This document shows, piece by piece, positions 15,720-40,209 of a stretch of 64,000 bases of DNA. The notes under the pieces were generated by a model. That model did no database searches and was not told the DNA's origin. It worked only from the letters and a program-made list of their open reading frames with translations. Positions within the stretch are counted from its first letter, which is position 1. Each line of letters starts with the position of its first letter. Origin of the DNA: Chloranthus sessilifolius (Eukaryota; Streptophyta; Magnoliopsida; Chloranthales; Chloranthaceae). The stretch spans positions 68,599,901 to 68,663,900 of the forward strand of contig CM037591.1 of NCBI GenBank assembly GCA_021018995.1, read 5' to 3'. A program made the position numbers and the translations under genes.

Positions 15720-15922
15720 GGCGCAACTAATAGTTGCGCCAGTTGTAATTTTGCCTAGCGCAACTATTAGTTGTGCCAGGCCATTTTCCCAGAATTTATG
15801 CCTGGCGCAACTAATAGTTGCGCCAGTATTAAAGTCAGCCCCACCCTCGCGAAGCCAACGTCTAGGCCACTGTTCAGCACTATTTTATTGTACATTTGCC
15901 TGGCGCAACTAATAGTTGTGTC
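15720..15922. repeat. Palindrome array, version 1 (B 5' LTR, U3)
   Basis: Palindromes start at 15720, 15757, 15804 and 15902. The first and third are perfect: GGCGCAACTA and TAGTTGCGCC around one A. Compared with the 3' LTR (five copies), one unit of about 47 bp is missing after the first copy. Confidence 0.95.
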
Positions 15923-16205
15923 AGGCATATGAACAGTAACCTCTGATTTTGCCTTGAATTTCATGATTGGGTTTTGACTTGTTGACCACTTGGGTCTTTG
16001 GGGTGTGTTTTGATAGTTTTGTTGCACCCTCTTACACCCTATTTGATGCCCATTAGGTAACTTAAAGCCCCTCCCTATCATCCACCATTGGAGGCTCTTT
16101 TCACACATTTCAAGGCTCCAAAAACTCTAGGAATCCTTAGATGTGAGATTATCTAATTGCTAAACCCAATTAGCATCTAAGTGGTCTCCTAACCCACCCA
16201 TTTCC

Positions 16206-16213
16206 TATAAATA
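16206..16213 (+). promoter_or_regulatory. TATA box of B 5' LTR
   Basis: TATAAATA in cctataaatagagccccc, about 284 bp after the last palindrome. The same spacing holds in the 3' LTR and in LTR C. Confidence 0.8.
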
Positions 16214-16942
16214 GAGCCCCCCTCCCATTGATTTAGGGGTTGAGAATTTTTACCTAAGAGAGAAAGAGCTTAAAGTGAGAAGATCTTTCTCCCTTTGGTG
16301 CAGCATTGCTCATACAAATTTCAAAATTCCAAAACCCCCTTTGAGTGATATTTTCTACCTTAGATCCCCTAGTTTAGGTGTATGCTACCCATTTACCTTC
16401 CCTCTCTACCCCTTAGCTAGCAAGCCTTAGAGCTTAGAACTCCTATTTCCACCATATAAGCCTTCAAGAGCTCATCAAAAGTAAGCCACGCAAAGCGCTC
16501 CTACGGTGCTACAAGGGCCTAAGGGCTCTGACTCTCCCCTTTCTTCTCCTATCTCTTCTTTAGCTCTTCCCATCCTTCCAATTGTACCGTTACGCCACCG
16601 AATTTTCGGTAGGAACGGAGGCGCACAAATAAGATTTAAGACCCATTTAGGCAAGAGGAAGCCATTTTCTTTTCTTGTACTTTATTTTTGTATTGGCCAT
16701 TAGTAGAGACCGCGTTAAGTGGGTTGATCGGGTGCCTAACACCTTCCCGATCGATAACCGAAGCCCCTACCCAAGAGCCTTTGGTGTGAACCGGATTCAG
16801 AGTCATATTTTTAGTACTTTGGTGCTTATAAAAATGATATAGGTATCTTAAGACACCAAAAGCTCCGGGTGGCGACTCTATATTTTTAGCAAGCGAGCAT
16901 ATCGCCGCGACGAGATCGTCACAAATCTCACGGTTGCACAGA

Positions 16943-16960
16943 CGGCGACTCTGTTGGGGA
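16943..16960 (+). other. Primer-binding site of element B (tRNA-Arg)
   Basis: cggcgactctgttgggga, two bases after the LTR, matches the complement of the plant tRNA-Arg(ACG) 3' end with three mismatches, each a C/T difference. Confidence 0.88.
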
Positions 16961-17108
16961 CTAGTTAGTAGAGCTTCCCCTTGAACTGGGCCTCTTTATT
17001 TTTTATTTTTCTAATATTTTATTACTATTTTTTTATTTTATTTTTGTTATTTTTTACTCACCCCTCCGATTAAGTCATTTTACTTATCCCTACTTTTACG
17101 CCATTTAC

Positions 17109-17290
17109 GAGCCTTAGCCGATTGGGGGGCCTACTTGCGCATAGTCTGTAAATTTCTTTACTTTTCCGTCATTTTTAGTGCCCTAGCTGATCAGCGGGCC
17201 TACTTGAGCATTGTCTTTCAATTTCTTTAATTTTCTATCATTTAAAGTGCCTTAGCCGATTGGCGGGCCTACTTGTGCAAACATATTCCA
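17109..17290 (+). repeat. 69 bp tandem repeat in B leader
   Basis: Three copies start at 17109, 17178 and 17247, marked by gccttagccgattggcgggc and cctacttgtgca. The third is partial. A holds two diverged copies. Confidence 0.9.
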
Positions 17291-17782
17291 ACAGTGGACG
17301 CTGGCTCGTAGTGGCGGCATGAGGTCATCACCCCCATCTTTTGGACTAAAGAAACCTTCCATAAAAAAATGTTTTGAAAAAAAGAAGTTGAAATTGAACC
17401 AAGAAGAGGGAGCTTAATTAACTTATTTTTACAGGGTAGATTTTCAAAGGGTTGGGTTGAGGCACACATACAACCACCCGGGTCTTAGTATGGCGGCAGC
17501 TCCTAGTGGTGATGATCCAGAAAAGTCCCAGCCCACCTAGTATCTGAGAAGATGCTTGCACCGGAGGTATATCGGGTGGGTTCCCATTCCAAAGCTTAAA
17601 ACCCTTGGGGAGCGCGCTTGCGAGTTATACCGGACTCAAACCTTTAGAATTTGGTGAGGAGAGAATCGATCATATAAAGTCAAGCAATTCTCGGAAGCCT
17701 AACTTTCACAGAAACCCAAAATAGACCCATCTTCAGGCTATTGTTCCCTGCTGTTTTAGAATCTAGAGCATCATTTTTACCT

Positions 17783-17918
17783 GGCGCAAGTATTAGTTGC
17801 CTCAGTGCAAAAATTGGGAATTTATAACTGGCGCAACTAATAGTTGTATCAGCTTTAAATCCTCCTTTTTTACCTAAAAAAGAGGCCCTGCTATCTTGGC
17901 GCATGTATTAGTTGTGCC
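17783..17918. repeat. Palindrome array, version 1 with one hybrid (B leader)
   Basis: Copies start at 17783, 17830 and 17898. The last has a left arm like version 2 (GGCGCATGTA) and a right arm like version 1 (TAGTTGTGCC). Confidence 0.85.
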
Positions 17919-18421
17919 AAGTCTGCCTGAACATCAGCAGTCAAAAATTTGAGGCTTTCTCACCTCCCGAGTCTCCCGATTAGTGTGCTTAGTACCTTTG
18001 TTTGGGTCCCGCTATCTCCGACACCCAATACACCCCCACCGGTCAAAAGAAGGCAACTTCTTTTTGACTCATTCCGGGGGATTGGGTCATTTGCCTTGAT
18101 TTTTGTGTCTTCAATAGATCAAAGGTCCTCCTTCGATTCTTCCGAAGTGCGTCGGAATCACCGTCGCGGGTCTCAAATTAGGGTACGAAGACCACCCGAG
18201 AAGGAAATTCTAAGGCCTCGGAACCTTTGTTTTTCAAAATTTTCTCAAAAAATTAAATAAAAAACAAACTAAAAACTAAAAATCAAATCAAAACCAAAAA
18301 ATATATAGTTTGTGGTGCCAGCACAGTGGCATCATCTTGCCCTCCACCGTCCCGTAGGGGAAGAAGGAGGAGGATTTGTGGGCCTCATCCAAGGCACCCT
18401 TACCCAACCCGTTCCCGTAGA

Positions 18422-21400
18422 ATGTCATGGGTAGAGGACCCAGCTTATGCCGATCTCGACACATCCCCGCCCCATTCTCCTACCCATTCCCATTCTGGGG
18501 AAGTCTTTTCCACCATCCCCCTCACCCAATCACCCTTTACCGTTACCGGCCCATTTGGCGCCCCCAGCTTTCCAACCGCTACCTCCCAAAACATCCAAAG
18601 CCCAACCCCCAACTCCCTTTTTTTTACCCAAACCATGCCCATGCTAAATCCAACACCTTTTCCATCCACATTCATGACAAACCCAAACCCATTCTCCCAA
18701 CCCACATCCATACCCCATTTCTCATCTTCTTCCTATAGGCCCGATCCACCCACATTCACATACATCACTTCCGCCCTATCCAACCCCCCACAAATCCCCC
18801 CATCTACCCGGGTCATGCCCATTTTTACTGAGGGCATGCCCAATTTTTTCCAAACATCTACGCCCCACCAATCATCATCCCTAAACATCCCTAATCCTTC
18901 CCCATCCTTTGCCCCACCTCAACTCTCCAATCCACCCCATATCCCATCACATACCATGGCCATGCCTGATTATACCGGGGCCATGCCCAATTTATCCTCT
19001 ACATCCATCCCATCGATACCCCATCACCCCTTAAATCTCCCATCTCCATCCGACCCTCCTTCCATGACCATGATGGAGGAGATGTTCAAAGCCTACTCCA
19101 TGTGGAAGGCTTCCCAAAATGTCTCCTCTCCTCCACGCCCCATGTCCATGAATCCATCTCACACCCTCGCCAATTTCCATGCCTCACTCCCCCATAACCC
19201 CCATCAACCCCCTATAATCCACACCATCCAAACCTTCATTCCTCACTTGTCTCAAGGCCCCATGGCCCAAACCCCCATTTCCCACATGCCTCATGGCCCC
19301 ATGGCCCAAACCTCCACTCCCCACTTGTTTCAAGGGCCCATGGCTCAGACCCACCTAGGCTCAATGGGTCAGATCCACCAAGGCCCATGTCTCAGACCCA
19401 CCAAAGCCCAATGGGCCAAACCCACCTAAGCCCCATGGCCCCAACCCACCAAGGGCCCATGGCCCAAACCCATCAATGGCCCATGGCCCAAACCTATAAT
19501 GACCAAGGCTTCATGGCCCAAACCTAAGCCCAAAACCTTAGAACCCCACACCAATGCCCCCCACAATACCCCCAAAATTTCACCCACCCCCAACCTTCAC
19601 ACTCGGGTCAAACCCAAACCATACCTCAAACCCAATTTTCCCATGGCCCCACACCCCAAGGCCATCTCCAAACCTTCCCCCATGTCTAATGGCCCCACCA
19701 GGCCCCTCCCAAAAACCAAACTACCACTCACCCCATCACCCCGCAACACTTCCCCCAAATCAAATGGTCTCACCCCACCCCCATTCAGACCATGCCCACC
19801 CAGTCCATGCAACAACAACTTGAGAATCCCATCCTCACTACACCTTACATAGATCAGCAGTATGAGGAGGATGAGATCAGAAACAGTGGGGCCTATATCA
19901 GGGCATTAATCAATGTTAGTCGACCTGTAATTATCCCACCCCTAGCAGCCAAGAGTGAGTCCAAACTCACAATTGAGAAGACGGCTCCCATGTCCAAGGA
20001 GTCAGAACAGCTGAAAGAACAGTTCGATAAAATCCAGAAGCAATTACAGAAGATGGGTGGTGCTGAAATCCATGCCACACACTTCACAAATTTATGCCTG
20101 TTTGCCGAGGTCCCCATATCCCCCAAATTTATAATGCCGATCTTTAATAAATATAATGGCACGGGCAACCCTATTGCGCACCTTAAGTCCTACTGTGGGG
20201 ACATGTTCCAATACGGCGGAGATGAACAACTCGTCATCAAAGTATTCCAGAAAAGTTTAACCAACCCAGCTTTAAGATGGTTCACATCTCTTTAGCCATC
20301 AATGATTAAAACATGGAAAGATCTGACCCACCTATTCCAAAAGCAATATGTCTACAACATAGACATTGAGCCCCACAAGTCAGATCTAGCCCGGTTGAAG
20401 TAGAACTCCAATGAAACCTTCAGCGATTACTTAGGGCATTGGAGAGCACTGGCAGCTCAAGTTAGAAATCAGATACCTGACGATGAGCAGATAGAAATTA
20501 TCTCAAAAAATATCCTGTCAGTGATCTCAGATTTTCTTGTATATCAGCAGCAGTCCAGTTTTACTGACTTGGTAAGGAAGGCCAACCACTGTGAGGACAC
20601 CATCAGAGAAGGGCGGTTGAATAAGAATGCATTTGGGGGGCCCAGCAGGGTTAGGAGGTTCTCCGAATAGAAGAATGATAGGAGGACAGGGGCAGAGGTG
20701 CAAAATGTTGCAAACACTCGACCCAATAATAACAACGTAGCCCCGTTCTAATTCCAAGCAGTGCAACCAGCTCCCGTCAGGATAGATCCAGTACAAAGAA
20801 CAGGGAATGGGCAGGGGATGCAAATGACCCAGAGAGGAGAGCCCGTTATGATCGAGTTTTTATGCCCTTGGGGCAATCTTTGAGTGTAGTTTTACCTTTA
20901 TTAATTGAAAAGGGATTAGTAACTGCGCTCGAACCATGACCTCCTCCCAATCCAATTCCATATAATTTTGACCCCAATACACATTGCAATTTCCATTAGG
21001 GTGCAGGTCACCCAACTGATCGCTGCTTTCCATTGAAGCACGCAATCTAAGATTTAATCAATGCTGGGAAGATCATTCCCCCTACACCCACCCAAGCAAA
21101 CCAGCATGAGAATATGCCTTAGATACCTTTACCACCACAACCTACCGGAATAGCAGGTCTCAGACCCACCATAGGGATGGTAGAGGAATTTGAAGAAGAA
21201 TTGGAGTTTGATCCATCAGACTTTATTTGTAATCAAGAAATGTTTGTGGCACCAAGGCAGAGAAATCTAGGAGAAGGACCTATTGGGGTGATTGAACCCC
21301 TAAACCTAGCATATTACTTCCCCACCCCTGCACCATAGACCTAACCCCTAGATCTCAGGGCCTATTTTCTGCTACCCACTCCCATTAACTATGTACAAAT

Positions 21401-21875
21401 AAATGCGTATCAACCATATTCCACCACCCCCATCAATTACCCAATAAACCAACAGGCCCCCAATCCTCCCCCGCCAATAAACTACCAATGGCCTGCGCCC
21501 ACCCCATTAACCCAAGTCCAATCTCCTACAAACTCCACCACCCCCGTCAATTACCTAATGGCGCATTGAACCCCCGATCCCCCGCCATCACCTATCAACT
21601 ACCAATGGCCTACTTTTACCCCTTTTCCCCCAGTACCACCATCCTCAAGCTTCATCACCCCCATTTGGCCCAATTTGGCCACTCAACCAGCTATTACAAA
21701 GGTAAATCAAGTGTTACCCACACCTCCACAGAGCCCAGTGCAAGTGCCTGCAATGCGGCAGACTATCTTTGTTTCAAATATCCACCAAGTCCCGCTAAGT
21801 TATGAACAAACAGATGCCAAAGCTGGCGACCACAGAGGAGTAGTGGACTTTGTCATACAATCTGGGAGGATATGA
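18422..21875 (+). pseudogene. Element B gag, decayed
   Basis: The start at 18422 (MSWVEDPAYADLDTSPPH) is supported by the matching start in A. The gene has a long Pro/Ser/Met-rich N-terminal region, the QGPMAQT tandem repeat (19240-19510), then the gag core at 20050-20460: MPIFNKYNGTGNPIAHLKSY, KVFQKSLTNPALRWFTSL, YLGHWRALAAQVRNQIPDDE. A Cys/His cluster follows near 20985-21050. Stops at 20401, 20668 and 20749 stand where A still has CAG, CAG and CAA. A Pro/Tyr/Asn-rich C-terminal tract (21300-21870) precedes protease. Gag forms the particle. Confidence 0.88.
19240..19510 (+). repeat. About 30 bp tandem repeats in gag of element B
   Basis: About nine degenerate units around ggcccatggcccaaaccc, encoding QGPMAQTH-type repeats in the gag frame. 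Equivalent to 12033-12290 in A. Confidence 0.88.
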
Positions 21876-21992
21876 AAGTAGCCAGAAGCACTAGCAGCAG
21901 CACAAGCCCAACCAGAGGGGAAGAAAGATAGCACAGTGAACCCATTCCAGAAAATGAGTTGAGAGCTTATACTAAAAACTCAACTGAGAAGA

Positions 21993-22932
21993 ATGCATGC
22001 CCATATAACTGTATGGGATCTGTTGATGACGTCCCCACTCTATTTCCAAGCATTAATGGGGGCGTTAAAGAATGTGCATGTGTCACTTCAAGTTAGCCCA
22101 GAAGAAGTCGGGCAGATAATTGGCCAAGTGATGGCTCCAAATGCCATTTCATTTTCGGATGCTGACTTACCAGAGGAAGGAGGTAGCCACTCGAAATCTT
22201 TGAATATAACCATTGAGTCTGGAAACATGGTAATCCCCTTGGTCCTAATTGATAATGGGTCGGCATTGAATATATGCCCATTAAGAACTGCCACCAAGAT
22301 CGAGGTCGATCCATGCATGTTAAGGCCCACGAGAACCAATGCTAGAGGTTTTGACAATACCAGGAGAGAAATAATGGGAGAAGTTGATCTTGAGTTGTTA
22401 ATCGGGCCAATGACCTTTTCCATTTTGTTTCAAGTAATGGACATCAAGTCCTCATTTAATCTGTTGTTGGGGCACTCATGGCTACATGAAGTCGGAGCCA
22501 TACCTTTCACATTGCACCAAAAACTCAATTTTGCATTTGAGCACAAGATTATCACCATCATTGGTGAAGGGCACAGTGAGAAAGAGAATGCCACCAATAG
22601 TGTCGAAAAACACAATATGCTAGATGTGCCATACACCGCTAAAGATGTCGACCTCCAAAATTTTGAATATGAGGTATCGACAATACTCCCAGAGCTCATT
22701 GAGGGCATCACTCCTAAAACTGGAGGCGAAATGGTGGTAGCGATGGCCATGCTCCAGAAATGGGGCTATTAAAAAGGCAGAGGACTAGGGCTTAGATTGC
22801 AGGGCAGAAGAGAGCTAGTCATCGCCAAGGAACAGAAAGTTTATTTTGGGTTAGGTTACAAGCCCATGGAGGAAGAGGTCCGAGAGGCCAAAAAGAAAGC
22901 CAGGGTCGCTACAGTTGCAAGAGCTTGATGAA
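21993..22932 (+). pseudogene. Element B aspartic protease and G-patch
   Basis: Open to 22772. It contains VIPLVLIDNGSALNICPLRT with the active Asp codon at 22251, then FQVMDIKSSFNLLLGHSWLH and FEYEVST. After a TAA at 22770 the frame continues as KGRGLGLRLQGRRELV and FGLGYKPMEEEV, a G-patch-like RNA-binding motif that stands between protease and RT in several Tat elements. Protease matures Gag-Pol. The G-patch role is unknown. Confidence 0.85.
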
Positions 22933-23219
22933 TCAACATAGAAGAGAAACCTCGCCCTAGGCCGCATATCAGGAAATCCTTTGTCAGCGTTGGGGTCGTG
23001 AAAATCGATTGAAACGAGGTAACCCATTTGACCCCACACAAACCCCTAGCCACTATTCATTCCACTAATTCCTACATCACCCTTACCTGCCTGGAAATAT
23101 ACCATGCTGCTCTATCATTATTTGAAGAGCGAGGTCCCCTACCTACACAGTCTCCCCCTGTGGTAAATCACCACAAAACTATATTAATGCTTTAAGATCT
23201 CAAACGAAATACGGGTCAA

Positions 23220-23639
23220 CATGATGGAGGCTGACTCCAAAGAGCCATATCAGTCAGCACCCTCCATCCAAACAGGTAAAGGAGCGGCCTCTCAGGTACA
23301 CAATTGGGCATCTTTACCCGAAACCCTGAAAGTAGGGAGTGGCCAAACATTTGGCACCCATTTCCCAAAAAGAAATAACCTATAAAAACTGAGATAATCC
23401 CTTGGCAGGCAATACCTTGTATATATAGCAACCCGCTTTACCAAGGGTCCATTTTCGAAGAAAACAAAAATCTCAAAAACATTGAAAAAATACAAAATCT
23501 CAAAAACATTGAAAAAATATAAAATCCCAAAAACATTGAAAAAATACAAAGTCCAAAAACATCGTCATTTAAGATTCCAGATAAAATCACATAAAAGGAT
23601 GCCTTAATCAAAATACCCGTCCCACGTAAAATCGACCCC
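23220..23639 (+). other. Linker between G-patch and RT of element B
   Basis: Weakly coding linker with MMEADSKEPYQSA near 23221 and a tandem repeat at 23467-23563. No domain recognised. Confidence 0.55.
23467..23563 (+). repeat. About 31 bp tandem repeat
   Basis: Four degenerate copies of aaaaacattgaaaaaataca with the short spacer aaatctc or a variant. In A the equivalent place (8160-8220) has one copy. Confidence 0.85.
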
Positions 23640-25235
23640 TTTCCTATAGAAGTACAAGAAGAGGTAGGTGTTACGAGTCTAGATAAGGATGTCCCTTTGG
23701 AGGAGCTCCCCAATGAGCTCCTTGACAGGTTTGCCGACTTTGAGCATGCCCCTACCCCCATTATTGAGGAAACTGAGGACGTTAATCTAGGGACTGAGGA
23801 GATTCCCCGCATTACCAAGATCGGAACGTCACTATCTCCCGAAGAAAGAAAAAGCATGATCGACTTCCTTCGGTCATACTAAGACATTTTTACCTGGTCA
23901 TACGAGGACATGCCTGGTCTATACACTGATTTGGTCGAGCATGAGTTGCCTTTCTACCCTGATGTGATGCCGGTTAAGCAGAAGCTGAGACGTTTCCGAC
24001 CCGAGTGGATGTTGAAAGTCAAAGACGAGGTCATCAAGCAGTATGATGCAGGGTTTCTCATGGTATCCAAATACCCGCAGTGGCTAGCCAATATTATGTC
24101 TGTGCCAAAGAAATATGGAAAGGTCTGCATGTGCATCAATTTTTGAAATTTGAATAGAGCGAGCCCGAAGGATGATTTTCCACTATCGCACATCGACATC
24201 TTGGTTGATAATACTGCTAAGCACGGGATGCTTTCTTTTATGGATGGATTCTCAAGATACAATCAGATTAAGATGGCAGAGGTAGACAGAGAGAAGACAG
24301 CGTTCATCACTCCGTGGGGAACCTTTCGCTATAGAGTCATGTCATTTGGGCTGAAGAATGCCAGTGCAACATACTAGAGAGCTATGATGGCACTGTTTCA
24401 CGACATGATGCACCGAGAAATCGAAGTGTATGTCGATGATATGATACCAAATCAACAGAATGAAGCAATCACTTGGTAAACCTTCAAAGGCTATTTGAGA
24501 GGTTAAGAAAGTATCGACTACAACTGAATCCATAGAAGTGCGCATTTGGTGCTATGTCCGAAAAACTTTTAGGATTCATCGTTAGCAAGAGAGGGATCGA
24601 GGTCGACCAAGTCAAAGTCAAAGCTATCACAGAGATGCCACCACCCTCTACTGAGAAAGAGGCTAGAGGGTTCTTGGGCAGAATACAATATATCAGTCGG
24701 TTCATTACGCAACTAACTCCAATCTGCATGCTGCTCTTCAAGCTACTAAGGAAGAACTCGCCCATTGAATGGAATGACGATTGTCAGGTAGCATTTGATA
24801 AAATCAAAAGCTACCTCCTTAACCCACCTGTGTTGGTACCACCCGAGCCAGGGAAACCACTCTTGATGTATCTCTCCACGACGGAAGTTTCGATGGGATG
24901 TGTCTTAGGTCAGCATGACGAGACAGGAAGAAGAGAATAGGCCATCTACTATCTAAGCAAGAAGTATACTAATTATGAAACGCGTTATTCTCATCTAGAG
25001 AAAGTATGCCTGGCTCTTGTATGGGCTACTCAGAGGCTCCGCCATTACTTGCTATCCCAAGCCATGCTGCTCCTAGCACGCATGGATCCGTTGAAATACC
25101 TATTTAAGAAGCCAGCTCTCACAGGGCGGACTGCACGATGGCAACTTTTATTATCTGAATTTGGCATCACATACGTCACTCAGAAGTCGATCAAGGGGCA
25201 GGCACTCACCGATCATCTTGTCGATAATCCTTTGC
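23640..25235 (+). pseudogene. Element B reverse transcriptase and native RNase H
   Basis: Copies genomic RNA to cDNA. Blocks are: WSYEDMPGLYTDLVEHELPF, DAGFLMVSKYPQWLANIMSV, HIDILVDNTAKHGMLSFMDG, EVDREKTAFITPWGTFRYRV, catalytic YVDD at 24429-24440, LLGFIVSKRGIEVD, QYISRFITQLTPIC, then RNase H (AIYYLSKKYTNYETRYSHLE). Stops: TGA 24144, TAG 24375 (Gln of ATYQRAM), TAG 24938 (A has CAG). A deletion or frameshift follows YVDDMI (24441-24480). Confidence 0.92.
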
Positions 25236-25779
25236 CAAGATTATGAACCTTTGAGAATGGAGTTCTTCGATGAAGACATGTTGTTCATGACGAAGGACGA
25301 TACAGAAGAAACAGAAGAATCATGGGTAATGCACTTTGACGAGGCAACAAATGTTGAAGGTCAGGGAGTTGGCGCCATTCTGATTTCGCCGAAAGGGTCC
25401 CATGTACCCATCTCTATCAAGCTCAACTTCCCTTACACTAACAACATGGCTGAGTATGAAGCTTATGCTGCTAGTCTATAGGCGGCTCTCGATCTGAATG
25501 TAACTCGCCTTTGAGTGTTTGGCGATTCACAGTTAATCATATGCCAGACGAATGGAGATTAGAAGATGAAAGATGAGAAATTAATCCCTTACCATGAGCA
25601 CCTCGAGGATCTAATAGCTTGCTTCCAAGATGTGACATTCTCGTATGTCCCCCGAATAAGGAATCGCTTTACCGATGCACTTGCAACGCTGGCATCAATG
25701 ATAAAAATCCCGTATGGTGCTGAGATGAAGCCAATCATGATCGAGTAGAAGAATGAGCCAGCCTTCTGCCTCCAGATTG
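25236..25779 (+). pseudogene. Element B archaeal-type RNase H
   Basis: WVMHFDEATNVEGQGVGAIL, LNFPYTNNMAEYEAYAASL, FGDSQLIICQTNGD and RNRFTDALATLASM mark the second RNase H of the Tat lineage. The first motif has FDEA where A keeps FDGA. Stops are at 25479, 25513 and 25558 or so, and at 25747. Confidence 0.88.
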
Positions 25780-30011: not shown

Positions 30012-30178
30012 AAACGTACAAGGATCTTTAAAGCGTATAGAATTTGATGTATGTTGATGGACCCGCCCCTAGGAAAATGAGAACAAAAAGAATCAGTCAA
30101 AAGGGCCAAGTCAAACAAAAAAGAGAGTTTTGAACTTACTCAAGTACATAAGGACCCACAGTTCTCCAAGCTAAGGCT

Positions 30179-30293: not shown

Positions 30294-30316
30294 AGAAAAA
30301 AGCTCCCTCCGCGTAA

Positions 30317-30514
30317 GTCATTTTGGGGCCTAATTTGAGGGGAATTTCATTTGTTCCAGCACATTTAAAAATTTGTCAAAACTATGGGTAGCTGTAAGCA
30401 ATGTCCAAAATTTTAAAGTCATTTTGGGGCCTAGTTTTAAGGGAATTTCGTTTGTTTTCAGCCCATTCAAAATTGGTCAAAACCATGGGTAGCCGTAAGC
30501 AACGTTCAAAATTT
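30317..30514. repeat. 101 bp tandem duplication
   Basis: Copies at 30317-30417 and 30418-30514, both starting gtcattttggggcctagttt or a close variant and containing atgggtagctgtaagcaa. Placed between the palindrome array and the PMD gene. Confidence 0.9.
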
Positions 30515-30805
30515 TTTTAAATGCCTCTAACGGTTTAGAAACCATTTTTTATTTCCTTATGTGCAGGATGGATCCTACATCAAAGCATGCGACCCAAGGG
30601 GTCGCTTTTCGAGAGCACTTGGCAGGCATGTCCTATAGAAAAATAGATAGGTTTAGGGGAGCCATGGCATGCAATCAAGACAAAAGCACTAAAAAATTCC
30701 AAAATAAAAATCATCCACAAAGTGCCACATCATCCATCCCAAGCTGTCTAAAAATTCAAATTATCAATCCCAAAGTACTAATGTTTGAAAAGGGGAAACT
30801 AAGGC

Positions 30806-33260
30806 CTATTCCTTATCCGCGCCCTTTGATTTCTTCCAACGACGAGTGGAGCCCTGGTAAGTCCGCATATCCCCCACCCGGGACCAGGCTTGAGAAATCC
30901 GACTAAGCAAAAATAATGACTCCTTGGCACGTGCACGCTACAAGTCATAGCCAAAATCAGAAATCGGGACCAATCAGAATGATGACGGAACCCACAGAAA
31001 AAGCAGAGCAGCAGAATACTCACCGTCTCCACATCTCGAAGTTCCATGAGGTTACGATGATATGTCGCATACTCCATGGCCGACTCGATGTTCTACATTC
31101 AGAGAGATACAATGTCAGCTATCCGGGCAATATTGAAATATGTGCAAAGGGAAGCCGGAACAAGAAAGAGACGGGCCGTCAGAAGACTTACCCCGGGGAT
31201 CACCTAAGGAGGAGGGACACGGGCCACTTCAGCAGAGAGACGTGCCTGCCTATCTACGACGGCACACAGGTCCGAGAGAAAGCCGTCATCAAGGCGTCGA
31301 AAGGTCCCATAGACCACGGTCGGGTCACCTCTCGGGGCACCAGCCTGAGAGGTACCCGACGGACCAACGTTGGAAGAACCCTCACCAGAAGGACCCACAC
31401 CAGAAGGGTCAATGCCAGAAGGACCTGCCCCCGAAGTATCAGCTGTACCTGTCGCTGTCCCGCCTTCATCATCAGAGCCGTCCCCTGGAGCAAACTGTAG
31501 ACAAAGTAAAAATCAGTTCAGAAAGAACAGAAACCGAGATAAAATAAAAGGAGACTAATCTAAAGAGGGAAAGGTAATTACCAGCCCACGCTGGTCACCA
31601 AATGCGAGGAAATTGACACTAGGTACGAACCGTGGTAGGATAAATTGATATGGCAGACACTCATACCAAGTATGATAGTCTTCAGGCACATGAAGAGCAT
31701 GGATAGGGAGCCCATTGTTGAGGAGGGCCACCGTGAGTTCCTCAACACTGCCAACAGGATTCCAAACATCTGTAGGAGGGTCCATGGGAATGGCATAGTA
31801 GCCCTAGTACTGGTGCAGCACCCGCTCTCCTAAGTAGTAAGCCTTGGCCCACGCCCCATAAAAGAAAATGACACGACGATTGTTAAACAGGCGAGAGGGG
31901 CCTACGGCAACCCGATCCCAGAAGGGGGACGCGAGATACAGGTCGTGGAGGATCTATCCAAGTCCGAAAGCAATTAATCAATCAAAAGGCAGTATAGTAA
32001 TCAAGAAGGATTTCCAAGCATGGATAAACCAAGTTGTTAAGAGGGGCTTTACCTGCTTAGGAACCATCAGGTCAAGTTGGGACCTTAAACCCATCTCCAA
32101 GTGCTTCATGCCCACCTCACGACGTCGGGCTTGGTTCTACTTACTAAGAAGAGGGTAAGTAAGTTCCTCCAAGTGAAGAAGTGGGCGCCCAGGGTGAAAA
32201 TGGTGGTATCCCCATACCTGAAATGAGCATTACACAGGAGCAGGTCCGTAGCATACAAAGGTCATTCAAGGAAACTGGTGAAGTGAAAGAATGAGGGATT
32301 ACCTCCAAGGCAGCCCAAAAACCAGCAACATATTTGGAATCCCCAGTCGTGACCCGAGCTAAGTTAAACATCAGCCATGCGTAAGCGGCCCCACCCTAGT
32401 CATACCTATGGATGTTACCCTAGTTTTCCATGACGCTCAGGAATGCTAGGCTAACTCAGCCACCGCTCGCATTGGTAAAAAGGGTCTTACCCAGTAGGAT
32501 CAGAAGAGTAATGTAGGCCAAGACAATCACCCACTCAGGCGTAATATAAAGCACCCTGTCTGGCTGTCCCAGGTCCACCAACTCGTCGATCATGTAAAGT
32601 GCGGTAAGCCATGACATCTTGACCTCAGTACCATGCGTCTGCCCGAGAGGGGGATGGGCTCCTATCAGTCAGATGACATCCTCTCTACTCGGCACGGAGA
32701 GGCCAGCTATCGGTATCCCTCCCATCCTGATACCCATAATCATCGCCCAGTCAACAGGCGTCAGGGTCATCTCGACGTACGACATATGGAAGGTCATCGT
32801 CTCAGGGCGAAACCGTTCGATCAGGGCCTTCAGATAGGTGCCATCAGCCCTCATGGTAGGGCAGGACAGAAACTCCCTGAAGCCCACCTGCACCAGCAAG
32901 AACTTTACTATGGGAGGGACGTAGAGGTAGAAGTCCTGGAAATCAATCCATCCCCCGCAGAATATAATAGAGGGCAAGTCCTGCGTCAGAAGAGAAAAGT
33001 ACATCAGATCATGGAAAGAAAGAAAAGCTACACAAAAGAAAGAAATTTGAACCTTCTTTTACCTGGCCCGCTATACCAAAATTCGAAATGTGGGTGTACT
33101 GTTGATGTAAGAGGCCGACTTGGGCGGCCTCGCCCTGCATTTCGAGCCATGAGCCCGCCTTCCGCTCCACCCAAAGGAACTTCTCCCCTCATGGGCCGTA
33201 TACTATCTCGGGCCCCTCCTCGTGGCCCTCCTCGAGAACGTGCTCATCACCACCCGACAT
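30806..33260 (-). pseudogene. Element B antisense plant-mobile-domain gene, 7 exons
   Basis: Antisense to gag-pol. Exons (minus): 33063-33260, 32303-32980, 32053-32217, 31582-31953, 31192-31494, 31024-31092, 30806-30937. Every intron is GT-AG and phase 0, and every exon is a multiple of 3, giving 638 codons plus TAG. Exon 2 carries the PMD core: TYLKALIERFRPETMTFHMS, VEMTLTPVDWAMIMGIRMGG, LAYITLLILLGKTLFTNASG, GGAAYAWLMFNLARVTTGDS and WAALE. Exon 4: DVWNPVGSVEELTVALLNNG. Exon 5 is Gly/Ser/Pro-rich. Exon 7 is basic (STRRWKKSKGADKE). There are eight premature stops, TGA (3) and TAG (5), and no frameshift. PMD proteins occur in plant transposons and in host MAIN-type genes involved in silencing and genome stability. 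The role here is unknown. Confidence 0.85.
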
Positions 33261-34543
33261 TCTAGGGCAATAAAAATCAATCACATCAAAGTAGATAAAT
33301 GATAAAGAGCCACGATATACCATGCTGCAAAGAAAGGTAAGTATGCTCACCCTCCCCCCTTTTTTACTTATGAGAGATACATATGCGTAAATAAAGAAAA
33401 GAGAGATCCCTTTTAGATTGAAAAAAATCCTTTCTTCAGAAGATGATAATAAACAAAATTTCCCCTTTGAAAATAAAGCAAGTTAGAATCGAATAAAATC
33501 ATTCTTTTATGTTTCTAGAAAAAAAAGGATAGAAGCCTTTCTTTTTACACTTAGAAAAACAAAAAAATCCTCCCTTTATGTCTAGGAAAACAAAAAAGAG
33601 AAATCATCACCACGCTTCTCACAAAAAGTCATTTCTTCGTGTTCCTAAAAACAAACAAAAATAATCCTTTACTTTGTTTGTCAAAATAAAATGAAGAACC
33701 AAAAACAAAAAAATAATTATTTACTTTGTTTGTCAAAATAAAATGAAAAACCAAAAATAAAAAAATAATCATTTACTTTGTTTGTCAAAATAAAATGAAA
33801 AGCCAAACACAAAAAATAATCATTTACTTTGTTTGTCAAAATAAAATGAAAAACCAAAAACAAAAAATAATCCTTTACTTTGTCCGTCAAAATAAAATGA
33901 AAAAACCAAAAACAAAAAATAATCCTTTACTTTGTTTGTCGAAACAAAACAACAAAAAAGAAGTAAAACCAAAAACAAAAATAATCCTTTACTTTGTTTG
34001 TCGAAATAAAAAAAAAAAAATCAAAAAATCCTTTGCTTTATTTAAATAAAAAATAAAAACAAAATTTCTTTACTTTATATAAACAAAAAATCCCTTTCAA
34101 TATGTACAAGTGAAAACAACAAAAAAAATGTATAAAATATGTATAATACATTATGCAAAACCCATGAAACAACAAAAATAGGGCATCATTCATAAGAAAC
34201 CATCCACACACCATCAATAAACATATACTCCACAAAAGTTAACCATTACTCATCAAAGAATGTAAGATCATGTTCATATTTGCAAAAAAATAATAGGGAA
34301 AATCAAGAAAAGTGAGTTTTTAATGGTTACCCTGTGAAGGGGATGTGGTCGTTGACCTATTGCGATGCGAACAAATAATCGGCAAACAAGCAACAACAAT
34401 GCGGCACGCGTAGAGGCAACGTAAAGGAACCCTAAAGGTGGGCCGGTTTGCAGTTTTGAGAAAGGGAGAGGAAGAGTTTTTGAAATAACCACCTTGTTGC
34501 TCGAACTCGGGGGTTTTAAATTCAAAAAACCCCAGTTTGGTCT
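33261..34543. other. AT-rich tract upstream of the antisense PMD gene
   Basis: No coding sequence. Plus is A-rich with a tandem array (33640-34030). It could be the 5' UTR, an intron or the promoter of the minus-strand PMD gene. Confidence 0.6.
33640..34030. repeat. About 52-60 bp AT-rich tandem array
   Basis: About seven copies of a unit containing tttactttgtttgtcaaaat and aaaatgaaaaaccaaaaa. Later copies diverge and shorten. Confidence 0.9.
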
Positions 34544-34709
34544 ATCGCAACTAATAGTTGTGCCAGACATTTTTGCCCCCCGGATTGGCTTGGCACAACT
34601 AATAGTTACGCCGGGCAATTGTTTTGGCCCTGCTCAGCTTGGCGCAACTAATAGTTGTGCTAGGCCATTTTGAGCCTTCTTTTGGCTTGGAACAACTAAT
34701 AGTTGCGGC
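34544..34709. repeat. Palindrome array, version 1 (upstream of antisense PMD gene of B)
   Basis: Copies start at 34544, 34592, 34641 and 34689, a spacing of 48-49 bp. The cores are AACTA-A-TAGTT with decayed outer arms. Confidence 0.9.
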
Positions 34710-36294
34710 AGGTACTTTCGGGCTGTGTTGGGCCTGGGTCGGGTCTCATGCTTGGTCCGATTCCCCTCCCTCTTCGTTTTGGGTACCCCCGGCAGATGTA
34801 TATTCTCCCATGGCGTTTCGATCTTTATTCGACTTGCCCAGGCAGACGTGCTAAAATAAGTGGACCAAGATCGATGAGCAAGCTCAAAGCATCTTGATAA
34901 GACATGAAAAATATAAAACAAAAAAAACACATACAATGATAAATCCAAAAAAAATCACATAAAATAATATAACAATCACAAAAATATATAGCACATAAAT
35001 GATAACATATTTGTGCTTCCCCAAGGAGTTACGCACATGCATAATGTGGTAAAGTGTCAATGCTTTATAGACGATGCAGTTGTGCCATATTAATGTCTCG
35101 AGTCCAGGGTTCGCCTTGGGTCATTGGATCCTTCTTCAAAAGTAGGAGCAATGACGTCAATCATGATCAGACGGTCAATGTTTCGATCAAGATGACTTCA
35201 CTGCTAAATCTTTGCGATGAGCGCTCTATTTTGGATTCATATGAACTTAAGTGTCTTAAGCTTCAGATTCTCCATTGGAAAAGGTCAATCGTTGGTTGAG
35301 ACCAACCTGTTGAGAATGAGATTGCGTATCAATCAAACTATGTGCAACCATACATATAGAAGGGTTCATTTCCCCTTTATTTTCTACAAGCTTAAAACCT
35401 GTATGGGCAGCGGTATCCCTGTAAAGTATACGCTCTGCGTCTGGGTATCCGTATGATGGTCATTTATTCCTGAAAATTGTACCCGAGCAGGTCTGGGTCG
35501 GGGCTTCCATCGCCTTTATTGCTTATCGCCCCTAATGGGTGCATGTTTATGCATAGTTAAATGATGTTTATGATCATTGTTGGTAGAAACCAGGATTGGA
35601 TGTCCCTTTTGAGAGATGCCTAATGTTTGGTTGGATCTGTTTAAGGTAGTTGAAGCTGGATGCTCTAGGTCATGTCGATCTAGGGCACATCTTCAAAAAA
35701 GGCACATACTCCTAAAAAGCATTGCGACTTCTATTCGCTCTGCTCGGGTAATCGTGCTAAATAAACTTCGGGATCAATGGGTTCGCCCAAAGACCTCAAA
35801 CCCTGCTTCACGCAGGGGCACCCGCGACCAGTCAAATGGGGCAATCAATGCCTCATGGGATTTGACGCAAATTGTGGAACCTTGCATATTTTTGCTTTGC
35901 GCCTATCTTTAAGTGTGGGTCGATCCCCCTCTTTACTTGTGAAGCTGTTGTATTCAGAATGAATCTCGAACATCAATCACCTTCAAATCATCTCAAGAAG
36001 CGAACATTTTTCCTGACGTACAGGCTTTCACAACTCGAGAAGCGAACATTTTTCTCAGCTATTGGGCTTTCGCAACTCATCTCACCTCGGTTATGCCCAG
36101 TAATGTCGCTAAGCGCTTGGGGACCGATCGCCTTGAGAAATGAATGTTTAGCCTGACATCCAGGGCTTTCATTTTCTCATCATGTTACTCATCTGATGTT
36201 TAAAGTTTATTCTGAATGCAGCGGATCAATCAGTAATGCCTTAGACCTCTTTGGATGTCTCTTTTCTTGAGCATTCGATCATTAGTGATCGGAT
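34710..36294. other. 3' untranslated tract of element B
   Basis: No coding sequence. A short repeat of gaagcgaacatttttc followed by gggctttcgcaactc occurs two to three times at 35998-36175. Confidence 0.7.
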
Positions 36295-36310
36295 ACCAAA
36301 GAGGGGCATC
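36295..36310 (+). other. Polypurine tract of element B
   Basis: ccaaagaggggcatc immediately before TGTAGACACCC of the 3' LTR. The same tract, on minus, precedes F's LTR at 47359. Confidence 0.88.
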
Positions 36311-36714
36311 TGTAGACACCCAAATTTAGCCCAAGGCCTAATCGAAACACATTTCGAGAGAGGCACATTTCTTAGCTTTTGATGGCATATATGGAACCCT
36401 TAGAAATCATCCCAAACCCTTAGGAATCCTCCTAGATCCCTTAGGAACCACCCTAGAACTCTTAGAAATTGGTACTGACCCTTAAAACCCATTTCGAACC
36501 TAAACCTGACACTTCCAAGCCTTGGGTGAGGAGTGGTGTACCAGGACCAGCTTTGGCCTTCTACTATAATCAAATCTTATACCATTGAAAAGTAGAAGTT
36601 GTCAGCGTTCCAACGAGCTAAGAATCGCCCCAATCGGAGTTGTACCTCAAAAGATATGGCAGTCTAAACCCGAACAGCATAAGCGTAATTTCGATTGGGC
36701 TCCCCTAGGGATTT

Positions 36715-36963
36715 GGCACAACTAATAGTTGTGCCAAGCCATTTCTCCCCAGAAATAGCTTGATGCAACTAATAGCTGTGCCAGTTATAATTTTTTCTAG
36801 AGCAACTATTAGTTGCGCCAGGCCATTTTCCCAGAATTTATGCCTGGCGCAACTAATAGTTCCGCCAGTATTAAAGTGGGCCCCACCCTCGCGAAGCCAA
36901 CTTCAGGCCACTATTCAACACTATATTATTGTACATTTGCCTGGCGCAACTAATAGTTGTGCC
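36715..36963. repeat. Palindrome array, version 1 (B 3' LTR, U3)
   Basis: Copies at 36715, 36762, 36799, 36845 and 36943. The first reads GGCACAACTA / TAGTTGTGCC, changed symmetrically in both arms compared with the 5' LTR copy at 15720. Confidence 0.95.
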
Positions 36964-37247
36964 AGGCATATGAATAGTAACCTCTAGTTTTACCTCGAAT
37001 TTCATGATTGGGTTTTGACTTGTTGACCACCTGGGTCTTTCGGGTGTGTTTTGATAGTTCTGTTGTACCCTCTTACACACTATTTGCAACCCATTAGGTG
37101 ACTTAAAGCCCCCTCCCTATCATCTACCATTGGAGGCCCTTTTCACACATTTCAAGGCTCCAAAAACCCTAGGAATCCTTAGATGTGAGATTACCTAATT
37201 GCTAAACCCAATTAGCATCTAAGTGGTCTCCTAACCCACCCATTTCC

Positions 37248-37255
37248 TATAAATA
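37248..37255 (+). promoter_or_regulatory. TATA box of B 3' LTR
   Basis: TATAAATA, 285 bp after the last palindrome of the array. Confidence 0.78.
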
Positions 37256-37974
37256 GATCCCCCCTCCCTTTGATTTAGGGGTTGAGATTTTTACCTATGA
37301 GAGAAAGAGCTTAAAGTGAGAAGATCTTTCTCCCTTTGGTGCAGCATTGCTCATACAAATTCCAAAAGCCCCTTTGAGTGATATTTTCTACCTTAGATAC
37401 CCTAGTTTAGGTGTATGCTACCCATTTACCTTCCCTCTCTACCCCTTAGCTAGCAAGCCTTAGAGCTTAGAACTCTTATTTCTACCATACAAGCCTTCAA
37501 GAGCTCATCAAAAGTAAGCCACGCAAGGCTCTCCTACGGTGCTACAAGGGCCCGATGGCTCCGACTCTCCCCTTTCTTCTCCTATCTCTTCTTTAGCTCT
37601 TCCGATCCTCCCATTTGTGCCATTACGCCGCTGAATTTTCGGTAAGAACGGAGGGGCACAAATAGGATTTAGGGCCCATTTGGGCAAGAGGAAGCCATTT
37701 TCTTTTCTTTTACTTTATTTTTGTGTTGGCCATTAGTAGAGACCCGCGTTAAGCGGGTTGATCGGGTGTCTAAGACCTTCCTGATCGATAACCGAAGCCC
37801 CTACCTAAGAGCCTTTAGTGTGGACCGGATTCAGAGTCATATTTTTAGCACTTCGCTGCTTATAAAAATGATATAGGTATCCTGGGACACCAAAAGCTCT
37901 AGGTGGTGATTCTATATTTTTAGCAAGAGAGCGCATTGCCACGACGGGATCATCGAAAATCCCATGGTTGCACA

Positions 37975-37979
37975 TCAAC
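37975..37979. repeat. Target-site duplication of element B, right copy (TCAAC)
   Basis: Matches 15311-15315. Confidence 0.95.
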
Positions 37980-38563
37980 AAGTCAAACCCCAAAAGTGAA
38001 GTTTGAGTAAAAAACCATGGTTACTGTAGCTAAGCTTGGAGCATGTATTACACACGCCAAGCATAGCTACAGTGTCTGGAAGTTCAGAGCCGAGGTGGGT
38101 CCCACCAATACTTGGCATGTGTATTAGATGCACCAAGTCATTTTTGGAGAAAAGTGACTTGGCGCATGTAATACATGCACCATGTATGCCCTCAAATATG
38201 TGTAGTTTTTGTCACTTTTGAGATTGCCGTAACTTTTGAAGTACAACTCAGATTGAGGTGATTCTTGGCTTGTTGGAAAGCAGAGAACCCATACTTTTTA
38301 ATGGTATAAGATTCAATCTTAGTAGAGGTCCCTACCAGCCCTAGCACATCTCACTCTAATCATCGCCCGAGAGGGTCAACTATGGGTTCGGAGAGGTCGG
38401 GGGTAATTCCTAAGGGTATGGACAAGTTCCTAAGGGTTTGGGAAGATTCCTAAGGGCTTTGGGAAGATTCCTAAGGGTATGGGAGAAGCTATCGGAAGCT
38501 CGGGGGTGCGCCTCTCTGGAAGTATGTTTCGATCGGGCCTTGGGCCAAATTTGGGTGTCTACA
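37980..38563 (-). mobile_element. Element A 5' LTR, 5' half
   Basis: On minus it begins TGTAGACACCCAAATTTGG at 38563. It holds a version 2 palindrome array (38038-38181) and four copies of a roughly 22 bp repeat (cctaagggtttgggaagatt, about 38405-38485). It joins 14361-15315 once B is removed. Confidence 0.92.
38038..38181. repeat. Palindrome array, version 2 (element A 5' LTR)
   Basis: Copies at 38038, 38114 and 38161. The last reads GGCGCATGTA-A-TACATGCACC. Confidence 0.9.
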
Positions 38564-39090
38564 ATTATAGTTCGACCGACGATCTTTGATCACATTCATG
38601 AGTTATAGATGAAAGATTCAGAGTTAGTCAAGATCAGACATGGTGTACTTGATGGTAGTAGACCGGATTTCTCCATCAAGGAGGATGGATCACTTTTGTT
38701 CAGGAGACGTCTATGTATACCGATTGATGTTGACCTTCGGTAAACTATCTTAGATGAATCCCACAAGTCTAAGTATGTCGTACACCCTGGTAGCACTAAG
38801 ATGTATTAGGATATGAGGAAGAACTACTGGTAGAGAGGTTTGAAATAGGATGTTGCTGAGTACGTGTCAATGTGTTTAGTATGTCAACAAGTGAAAGTAG
38901 ATCATAGACATCCGACAGGTTTATTGCAGCCTCTACCAATACCAGAATGGAAATGGGAGTCAATCTCCATGGACTTCATAGTGGGATTACCACGAACAAT
39001 GAAACGACACAATGCCATTTAGGTAGTCATTCACCGATTAACCAAGTCAACTCACTTCTTGCCATACAACACCAAGTATACGGCAGGAAG
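38564..39090 (+). pseudogene. Element D (chromovirus) integrase, left part
   Basis: Decayed pol of a Tekay/Del-like chromovirus: [52 protein letters not shown] and [17 protein letters not shown], the zinc-binding part and first catalytic region of integrase. It begins abruptly where element A was inserted; the preceding part lies outside the window beyond A. Interrupted at 39090 by solo LTR C. Confidence 0.88.
39087..39090. repeat. TSD of solo LTR C, left copy (GAAG)
   Basis: GAAG is repeated at 40637-40640. Removing the LTR joins the reading TKYTAG to RLAELYMKEIV, as expected for this integrase. Confidence 0.8.
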
Positions 39091-39802
39091 TGGGATTTGT
39101 GATGATCCCGTCGCGACGATGCGCTCGCTAACAAAATTATAGAGTTGCCACCCAGAGCTTTTAGTGTCCCGAGAAACCTAGTTCATTTTTATGAGCACCG
39201 AAGTGCTAAAAATATGACTCTGAATCTGATCTACACCAAAGGATCTTGGGTAGGGGCTTCAGTTATTGATTGGGAAGGTGTTAGACACCCAATCAACCCG
39301 CTTAACGTGGTCTCTACTAAAGGCCAAAATAAAAATGATGTTAAAGAAAAGGAAATGACTTCCCCTTGCCCAAATGGATCCTAAATCATATTTGTGCCCC
39401 TCCATTCCTCCAAAAATTTGGCGACATAACAGCACAAATGAGAGAATAGAAGAAGAACTAAAAGAGATAGGAGAAGAAAGGGGAGAGTCGGAGCCCTTGG
39501 GCCCTTGTTGCACCATTGAGAAGCCTTGCATTGGCTTGCTTTGATGAGCTTTTGAAGGCTTGTATGGTGGAAATAGGGGTTCTAACCTCTATGGCTTGCT
39601 AGCTAAGAGGTAGAGAGGGAAGGTAAATGGGTAGCATATACCTAAACTAAGGGATCTAAGGTGAGAAATATCACTCCAAGGAGGTTTGGAATTCTCGATT
39701 TTGTATGGGAATGGTGCACCAAAGGGAGAAAGATCTTCTCACTATAAGCTCTTTCTCTCTTAGGTAATTTTTTCAACCTTTAATCCAAGGGGAGAGGGGC
39801 TC

Positions 39803-39810
39803 TATTTATA
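39803..39810 (-). promoter_or_regulatory. TATA box of solo LTR C
   Basis: TATAAATA on minus, about 285 bp downstream of the palindrome array. Confidence 0.75.
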
Positions 39811-40094
39811 GGAAATTGGTGGGTTAGGAGACCACTTAAGTGCTAATTGGGGTTAGCAATTAGGTAATCTAATATCTAAGGATTCCTAGGGTTTTTGGAG
39901 CCTTGAAACATGTGAGAAGGTCCTCCAATGGTGGATGATAAGGAGGGGCCTTAAGTCACTTAAGGGGTTGCAAATAGGGTATAAAAGGGTGCAACAAAAC
40001 TATCAAAACATACCCCAAAGATCAAGATGGTCAACAAGTCAAACTCCAATCTTGATTTTTGAGATAAAAACCCACAATCACTGTGTCTATGCTT

Positions 40095-40209
40095 GGCACA
40101 ACTAATAGATGCACCAAGCCATTTTTGGGGGAAAATGGCCTAGCACAACTATTAGTTGTGCCAGGCTTTTTCTGGGGAGAAATGGCTTGGCGCAACTATT
40201 ACTCGCGCT
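40095..40209. repeat. Palindrome array, version 1 (solo LTR C)
   Basis: Copies at 40095, 40142 and 40189, exactly 47 bp apart. The spacer at 40115-40140 is itself a dyad (GCCATTTT and AAAATGGC). Confidence 0.92.

Follow-up and report, generated by a model that had tools for sequence, protein, structure and literature searches.

Nested Ogre/Tat-like retrotransposons

The window, by which we mean the whole stretch of 64,000 nucleotides analysed, contains Ogre/Tat-like Ty3/gypsy retrotransposons to which the palindromes described below belong. Neither this membership nor the nesting of the elements appears in an earlier note on this DNA. Element B, with version 1 (V1) palindromes, is inserted into one LTR of element A, whose palindromes are of version 2 (V2). 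Element B, delimited by its LTR ends, TSD and domains, spans 22.7 kb of the forward strand (15316..37974), retains both LTRs and is bounded by the 5-bp TSD TCAAC, read from the sequence at 15311..15315 and 37975..37979. Comparison of the LTRs, which are 88% identical, places the 5' LTR at 15316..16940 and the 3' LTR at 36311..37974 (both on the forward strand), and a primer-binding-site-like stretch lies behind the 5' LTR (16941..16961, forward). Domain matches delimit a gag-pol region (20404..27034, forward) with the domains in gypsy order: RVT_1 (28.2 bits, just under the cutoff of 29.6), RT_RNaseH and rve, with a second RNase H (RVT_3, 25563-25745; 23.8 bits, above the cutoff of 21.6) between RT_RNaseH and Integrase_H2C2. 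For element A, LTR comparison yielded the inner part of the LTR severed by the insertion (14363..15315) and its outer part past B (37980..38565), both on the reverse strand, and a gag match (PF03732) was found. A third, separate LTR of B type (39090..40640, reverse) holds an array at 40095-40209 with the half-site pairs AG/AC, AC/AC and TC/AC.

The paired LTRs with TSD, gag, RT, RNase H and integrase identify Ty3/gypsy elements, and the second RNase H between RNase H and integrase is that of the Tat clade and Ogre. Great length, a long 3' region and PMD ORFs, here the matches in the antisense genes alpha and beta, are further points of likeness to Ogre. Ogre elements are also characterized by a tRNA-Arg PBS and an intron between the gag-pro and pol ORFs.

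The palindrome family and its versions

In the window, 33 sites lie within four mismatches of GGCGCANNTANTANNTGCGCC, 25 of them inside 15720-40209. The remaining eight, at 1286-1449 and 13437-13599, are version-2-like, with TG in 13 of their 16 half-sites and TT or TA in the others. Throughout the genome (2.17 Gb) we counted 75,110 sites at up to two mismatches, versus 36 with a reversed control pattern. The half-site is T-GGCGCA-NN-TA, where NN is AC in V1 or TG in V2, and one A or T stands at the centre. The earlier note had described a 21 bp near-palindrome in two versions, AC/GT versus TG/CA at arm positions 7-8; palindrome and versions were found as claimed, whereas the unit is longer, at least 23 bp, with an outer T and A kept in 97% of sites. 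Spacing between sites within arrays is mostly 47-49 bp.

Exact counts for the whole genome are 9,405 AC/AC (V1), 725 TG/TG (V2), 585 AC/TG and 635 TG/AC, from which an odds ratio of 18.4 is obtained for the association between half-sites, TG/TG reaching 4.6 times its expectation under independence. Asymmetric sites (AG/AC, TG/AC, TC/AC) are also present, the exact AC/TG and TG/AC hybrids amounting to 1,220, and certain asymmetric sites are found again at fixed positions across several copies. Because these are inherited at fixed positions, symmetry is not strictly required.

Covariation of the arms was analysed in 199 sampled sites, or 165 after removal of eight loci picked through TG/TG sites. 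Compared with expected values that treat the copies as unrelated, paired change was in excess only at position 7 (42 observed, 16.0 expected) and position 8 (41 and 18.7); in the reduced sample the figures were 14 versus 4.4 and 15 versus 5.8. The symmetry-preserving change between V1 and V2 is thus real and confined to two mirrored positions. The smaller paired changes of the GGCACA/TGTGCC type, which had been read in the same manner, are at the level of chance (position 4, 7 observed and 6.1 expected) and fit CpG decay. As origin of the V1/V2 difference CpG decay is rejected, as the caution attached to the original observation had anticipated.

Arrays and the antisense PMD genes

Element B carries arrays of three to five sites in its LTRs upstream of the TATA box, in its leader and 5' of two antisense PMD genes. 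The array in the U3 of its 5' LTR (15720..15922, forward; four V1 sites) is followed, about 280-490 bp downstream, by TATAAATAG (16206). Site scans located five V1 sites in the 3' LTR (36715..36963, forward) and three sites, AG/AC, AC/AC and TG/AC, in the leader (17783..17918, forward). Gene alpha of B (28548..30011, reverse) is PMD-like and decayed, with approximate ends, and was recognized by a conserved third-position pattern, a weak PMD match and its relatives; its array (30179..30293, reverse) has three V1 sites, one AA half-site among them, and lies 167 bp from the ATG. Gene beta (30802..33260, reverse; approximate) is a decayed PMD gene apparently of several exons, indicated by conserved pieces and a PMD match of 4.6e-8, under the gathering score. 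Its splice-like sites were read by eye, and four V1 sites were found upstream of it by site scan (34544..34709, reverse). The decayed alpha gene of A, detected by tblastn (1619..3094, forward), runs antisense to A's gag-pol and is preceded, 169 bp from its ATG, by four V2 sites (1286..1449, forward). The scan further revealed four V2-like sites in A's leader (13437..13599, reverse) and three V2 sites in its LTR (38038..38181, reverse). The sequence that flanks the window on its left side (L033) contains neither palindromes nor a beta match.

This arrangement recurs elsewhere in the genome. All ten alpha genes fetched by protein match alone carry an array of three or four sites 5' of the ORF, as do three of three further ones. 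Of 19 alpha regions, 15 have 162-174 bp between the end of the array and the expected start codon, across V1 and V2 (the distance for L045 being taken from the second ATG); the distance is 145 bp in L041 and 216 bp in L025, and L042 and L027 lack a start-pattern match. PMD scored above the gathering threshold in all six alpha ORFs scanned out of the ten fetched, and the beta gene of L017 gave a PMD match of 2.2e-16. Alpha is under purifying selection, with dN/dS values of 0.15-0.25 between families. A divergent alpha gene (L024) has at the usual array place a third symmetric palindrome, based on TAGCGTGTATA, with 4,076 sites genome-wide at up to one mismatch and 80 hybrids with V1 or V2. The evidence for this third version comes from one locus that was read and one match of coordinates, and the whole analysis covers one genome.

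Structure prediction for alpha was very poor (pLDDT 33.7), a protein database search with alpha returned no matches and comparison with the PDB gave no solved relative. With an unusable model and no solved relative, the analysis offers no support for DNA binding by PMD. Neither DUF1985 nor Transposase_28 (PF04195) was matched in the pieces scanned; these are decayed copies, so the absence of PF04195 is not complete proof.

Version is shared among the clusters within an element. Across 31 cluster pairs from 18 elements, the mean difference was 0.116 compared with 0.476 after shuffling, and with one value per element 0.124 compared with 0.469; in both cases none of 10,000 shuffles did as well. 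On removal of the four elements that had been picked through TG/TG sites, 14 of 10,000 shuffles were as low; when the window elements were removed as well, 643 were, and the agreement is not convincing. The V1 alpha rows form one clade, and the V2-to-V1 change may have been a single event, so that version agreement may in part reflect shared ancestry. Copying of arrays among the clusters of one element is unsupported: the flanks show none, and their ancestry stays specific to each place as the site changes (0.64 versus 0.57-0.59). On contig C1, an exact TG/TG site occupies the array position in two of nine A-like alpha matches and in none of 11 B-like ones (12 on C1), which are small numbers.

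A candidate regulator and its alternatives

We consider it probable, if only just, that the palindromes are bound in duplex DNA by a dimeric regulator that acts sequence-specifically on Ogre-type retrotransposons. The antisense PMD protein is a plausible candidate, and the role would be anti-silencing of the VANC kind. Such a regulator would bind the arrays at the LTR promoter, in the leader and 5' of both antisense PMD genes; it may be the product of alpha, of beta or of both, and its binding would either activate the element or shield it from silencing. New element families would gain private sites, as VANDAL/VANC families do. In favour of this reading are the positions and spacing of the arrays, their near-constant distance to the alpha ATG, the version agreement within elements (subject to the sampling described above), the small amount of change in TA-N-TA and the purifying selection on alpha. 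A fuller proposal is plausible without being probable: Ogre elements might run a private circuit in which the antisense PMD proteins recognize arrays at the LTR and at their own promoters sequence-specifically, as anti-silencing factors or transactivators, and families might split when protein specificity and all the sites of an element switch together.

The strongest competitor, which we nevertheless judge unlikely, is a host dimeric transcription factor that binds the palindromes and is exploited by the elements for their expression. Such a factor would account for the arrays as well: they do stand in promoter-like places, and a factor acting in trans on all clusters would yield agreement within elements. 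However, a host factor offers no clear reason for three symmetric versions in one genome (9,405 and 725 exact sites, and 4,076 at up to one mismatch for the third; 80 hybrids of the third with V1 or V2). The half-site includes TGGCGC, which we take to resemble loosely the E2F core, but E2F would leave TA-N-TA unexplained, and the base preceding TGG is C in 61% and T in 35% of cases.

Mutation without function is improbable. According to this explanation, template-switch repair keeps quasi-palindromes symmetric, and the arrays are hitch-hiking minisatellites shared through ancestry. It would account for paired single-dinucleotide variants, which occur at individual sites (AG/AG in L009, L011 and L032, GG/GG in L015), and it accords with the weak cluster agreement beyond the picked and window elements and with the tandem repeats often carried by related elements (PMC11963269). 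But template switching is a single-site process that does not make separate clusters agree, and arm changes at CpG positions are mostly one-sided, so that correction between the arms is not general. The near-constant distance from array to ATG across V1 and V2 and the flanks without copying between clusters also argue against it.

The earlier note had left the choice between a hairpin RNA and a site for a dimeric protein, of which the latter fits better. That the palindromes work at the RNA level, by forming hairpins or by giving rise to or being targeted by small RNAs, is very improbable, even though the arrays of the leader and 3' LTR would be transcribed and phased siRNAs from PMD genes have been reported in tea (PMC10673657). 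The would-be loop bases, the central TA-N-TA, are the least changed of the arm positions (0.99 kept, versus 0.82-0.94 for GGCGCA, all entering equally into the site definition), and on the sense strand pair-keeping C>T changes (51) are not in excess of pair-breaking G>A changes (48), which indicates no G-U tolerance. The window contains no Rfam family at gathering score, and in the 5' LTR the U3 array precedes the TATA box. Service in integration or replication, for instance as a Gag or integrase site, is hardly credible: arrays occur in both LTRs of B, but also 5' of both antisense genes (at a near-constant distance for alpha), far from the termini used by integrase.

A dimeric regulator encoded by the elements themselves would have counterparts in other transposons. 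VANC proteins regulate transposons sequence-specifically through motif arrays in noncoding regions, are specific to transposon families and co-evolve with their motifs (PMC5735166, PMC10398659). The noncoding arrays differing between related families are similar here, whereas the LTR retrotransposon context, the dyad, the 47-49 bp spacing and PMD in place of DUF1985 are different. VANC21 motifs moreover have a single orientation and their binding has been shown, that of the present sites being a proposal. Retand elements likewise carry tandem repeats and, between pol and the 3' LTR, antisense TRP28 ORFs proposed to encode DNA-binding regulators, with a TRP28 (PF04195) ORF in 97% of recent clusters (PMC11963269); in contrast, the elements studied here have PMD and, in the pieces scanned, no Transposase_28 match, and an LTR of 1.6 kb and an internal region of about 19 kb exceed the reported Retand range. 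MAIN and MAIL1 share the Pfam domain but are host silencing factors; a promoter motif is enriched among the genes requiring them, direct DNA binding being left open (PMC7156037). PMD occurs in 57% of Ogre elements (PMC6317226), two PMD clades are encoded by Gypsy elements only, and PMD captured by MULE transposons has already been speculated to serve anti-silencing (both PMC5418596). The function of such extra ORFs has been openly questioned (PMC6317226, PMC7264820). In the literature searched, we found no description of palindrome arrays in Ogre promoters or of family-specific versions.

The arrays represent a concrete candidate target for PMD with three natural symmetric variants, and binding and specificity are therefore directly testable in vitro. 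If the proposed regulation is true, this genome would contain tens of thousands of regulator sites, the widespread Ogre-encoded PMD would have a function and a VANC-like system would exist in LTR retrotransposons. Sequence-specific self-regulation of transposons would then extend beyond DNA transposons and include retrotransposons that are among the largest in flowering plants.

The palindrome family and the elements that carry it

The palindrome family in two versions that the earlier note had placed at 15720-40209 was borne out: a script scan of the window with GGCGCANNTANTANNTGCGCC at up to 4 mismatches gave 33 sites in nine clusters, 25 of them within that range, and both versions were counted genome-wide. 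Version 1 (V1) has AC/GT and version 2 (V2) TG/CA at arm positions 7-8, and half-sites are named by this dinucleotide. At up to 2 mismatches, the 32 contigs (2.17 Gb) hold 75,110 palindromes, against 36 for the control. In a sample of 199 sites from the window and the comparison loci L005-L043 (six isolated weak sites were removed from 205), the usual spacing inside a cluster is 47-49 bp (95 of 133 spacings, counted up to 160 bp), and spacings of 37-38 and 96-99 bp also recur. No likeness to the palindromes was noticed in a tandem repeat of 29/70 bp units with AAGCTCCCGAGTTAGCGGGATCACTTG at 53950-54121.

Self-comparison and reading of the ends delimited element B, an Ogre/Tat-like Ty3/gypsy retrotransposon with V1 sites, at 15316-37974; its LTRs measure 1,625 and 1,664 bp (88% identity), and a target duplication, TCAAC, flanks it. 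It interrupts an oppositely oriented LTR (pieces at 14363-15315 and 37980-38565) of its host, element A, which carries V2 sites; where the internal parts of A and B align, they share 68-74% identity in self-comparison. A gag domain was detected in A, and B has a reverse transcriptase (just under cutoff), RNase H, a second RNase H (RVT_3) and integrase; a second RNase H in this position, between the first one and integrase, is described as a hallmark of Ogre and Retand in Tat (PMC6317226). The reversed nesting of B in the LTR of A, with a 5-bp target duplication (15316-38565), produces an extensive, imperfect inverted repeat (about 1.4-30 kb), which might be misread as a palindromic duplication. 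Tandem repeats of 24 bp (GGCCCATGG-like) lie upstream of gag at matching places in A (12089-12258) and B (19335-19494).

Arrays, that is groups of sites, are found in the U3 of both B LTRs (the 5' LTR array precedes TATAAATAG at 16206 by 280-490 bp), in the leader, and 167 bp before the ATG of alpha, which together with beta forms a pair of antisense genes between pol and the 3' LTR; the array upstream of beta in B adjoins a TTTAAA stretch. The link between array and alpha was tested by a genome search with a 70-residue piece of alpha, in which 150 of 7,291 candidates were scored and 10 matches fetched from these, mainly by long open frames and blind to palindromes. In all 10 loci an array made up of 3-4 sites precedes the ORF on its 5' side, as one does in all three further copies fetched via alpha of A, two V2-like and one V1-like. 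The distance from array to expected start codon is 162-174 bp in 15 of 19 alpha regions, V1 and V2 alike (L045 by its second ATG); among the other four, it is 145 bp in L041, where the last site of the array is damaged, the first start-pattern match lies at 216 bp in L025, and L042 and L027 have no start-pattern match.

Comparison of A and B gave a third-position pattern in the antisense frame at 28.7-30.1 kb. The Plant Mobile Domain (PMD, PF10536) is above cutoff in all six alpha ORFs of relatives scanned; for beta, the PMD match is 2.2e-16 in L017 and 4.6e-8, under cutoff, in B, and the domain scan of the L025 piece gave none. Alpha dN/dS is 0.15-0.25 in 13 between-family pairs and 0.64 and 0.65 in the two closest-copy pairs; sequence comparison indicates that alpha is under purifying selection. 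Such elements are known to hold extra antisense ORFs of unknown role (PMC7264820, PMC11963269), and 57% of Ogre elements are reported to have a PMD (PMC6317226). Between beta and alpha, directly upstream of the alpha array, lies a tandem repeat of two 101-bp copies (86%) at 30315-30515; an A/T-rich 52-bp tandem repeat of about six copies at 33647-34091, between the beta array and the beta start, is perhaps located in a first intron of beta.

Symmetry of the sites

The proposal that the variants preserve symmetry stood for positions 7-8 and did not extend to the outer arms. Exact genome counts are 9,405 AC/AC, 725 TG/TG, 585 AC/TG and 635 TG/AC. In the 199 sites, paired change exceeds expectation at arm positions 7 and 8 only, an excess that persists once the eight loci selected by way of TG/TG are set aside; both expectations ignore relatedness. 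At the six outer positions per arm, changes are mostly one-sided; C>T or G>A accounts for 198 of the 254. Asymmetric sites are not uncommon, and a number of them are inherited at constant positions: in several B-type copies, for instance, the leader array begins with an AG/AC site and ends with a TG/AC site. Symmetry is therefore preferred but not required. Half-sites are mixed in the A-type copies L015 and L018, whose LTR and leader arrays hold AC, TG, AG, GG, CG and TC and are either relaxed or in transition.

A third symmetric version occupies the alpha-array place of L024, whose divergent alpha has 50-64% identity to that of B in the longer matching pieces: three copies of TAGCGTGTATA-N-TATACACGCTA, of which two are perfect, at a spacing of 47-49 bp. 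It differs from V1 at five mirrored positions and from V2 at four, with GCG and TA-N-TA kept. At up to 1 mismatch it has 4,076 genome sites (control 0), and 80 hybrids combine it with a right arm of the V1/V2 type (2 exact, control 1), V1/V2 sites having been counted at other thresholds. By coordinates alone, an alpha match on contig C1 (C1:106645973) has the third version twice, at alpha-array distance and again 3.7 kb beyond, which is roughly how far apart the alpha and beta arrays stand in L025 and L027. At alpha genes, the third version has a small base: one read locus and one match by coordinates.

Agreement of version within elements

Clusters were scored by the TG share of their AC and TG half-sites (41 clusters in 18 elements; assignment was by similarity to A and B), giving 31 pairs, 10 of them from B; the listed LTR cluster of L025 had no site after filtering, and that of L009, with neither AC nor TG, scored 0. 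The mean within-element difference was 0.116; shuffling inside cluster types gave 0.476, and none of 10,000 shuffles reached so low a value. A stricter test with one value per element, leaving out the 3' LTR of B and the L009 LTR cluster, gave 0.124 against 0.469 (0/10,000); minus the four elements retrieved by means of a TG/TG site, it gave 0.160 against 0.340 (14/10,000), and minus both window elements as well, 0.178 against 0.261 (643/10,000). Because the agreement fades without picked and window elements, it depends on the elements that are plainly V2. Having been fetched for TG/TG sites, the four picked ones are therefore weaker as independent evidence; the stretches fetched as L025, L027 and L028 each included two of these sites, from separate clusters.

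On the alpha tree, V1 forms one clade of 13 rows with the V2 rows outside it, and on an LTR tree without the array columns the versions largely track two main clades, inside which AG/AG (L009, L011, L032), GG/GG (L015) and mixed copies occur. Since the versions follow these clades, the main change between V1 and V2 may have been a single event that the clusters then followed, and both trees therefore limit the claim of agreement further. L009 sits between the V1 and V2 groups on the alpha tree; its alpha array (L009:5030-5097) mixes one V1-like and one V2 site and is a possible intermediate of the switch. Simple copying of arrays between clusters is spoken against by their flanks: those of clusters in one element (0.57, 6 pairs) resemble each other no more than those of different elements do (0.58-0.59); place-specific similarity across versions is 0.64.

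A putative element-encoded regulator

The earlier note had offered a hairpin RNA or a site for a dimeric protein. A hairpin is unlikely, because TA-N-TA, its would-be loop, is the least changed part and the arm changes are not skewed by strand in favour of G-U pairing. Sites for a dimer in duplex DNA do fit, each arm then being read as T-GGCGCA-NN-TA. The observation is confirmed, and its reading is narrowed to DNA sites of a dimeric, possibly element-encoded, regulator. Among the papers listed in searches of the open-licence PMC literature, none was seen to describe such arrays of palindromes for Ogre or PMD elements; the kind of element was already known, and what looks new is the promoter arrays and their three symmetric versions.

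The constant neighbourhood, the selection on alpha and the family-specific versions suggest that the regulator could be the element's own PMD proteins. A role in anti-silencing may be proposed by likeness to VANC, the anti-silencing proteins of VANDAL DNA transposons, whose targets are described as short motifs, arrayed in noncoding regions and differing between related transposons (PMC5735166, PMC10398659); the palindromes likewise form arrays in noncoding regions, in versions that differ between families. Anti-silencing by TE-captured PMD has already been raised as a possibility for MULE elements (PMC5418596). Host PMD proteins are reported to act in silencing, with a motif enriched in promoters needing them and direct binding left open (PMC7156037). 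Phased siRNAs are given by tea PMD genes (PMC10673657), which would be compatible with an arms race.
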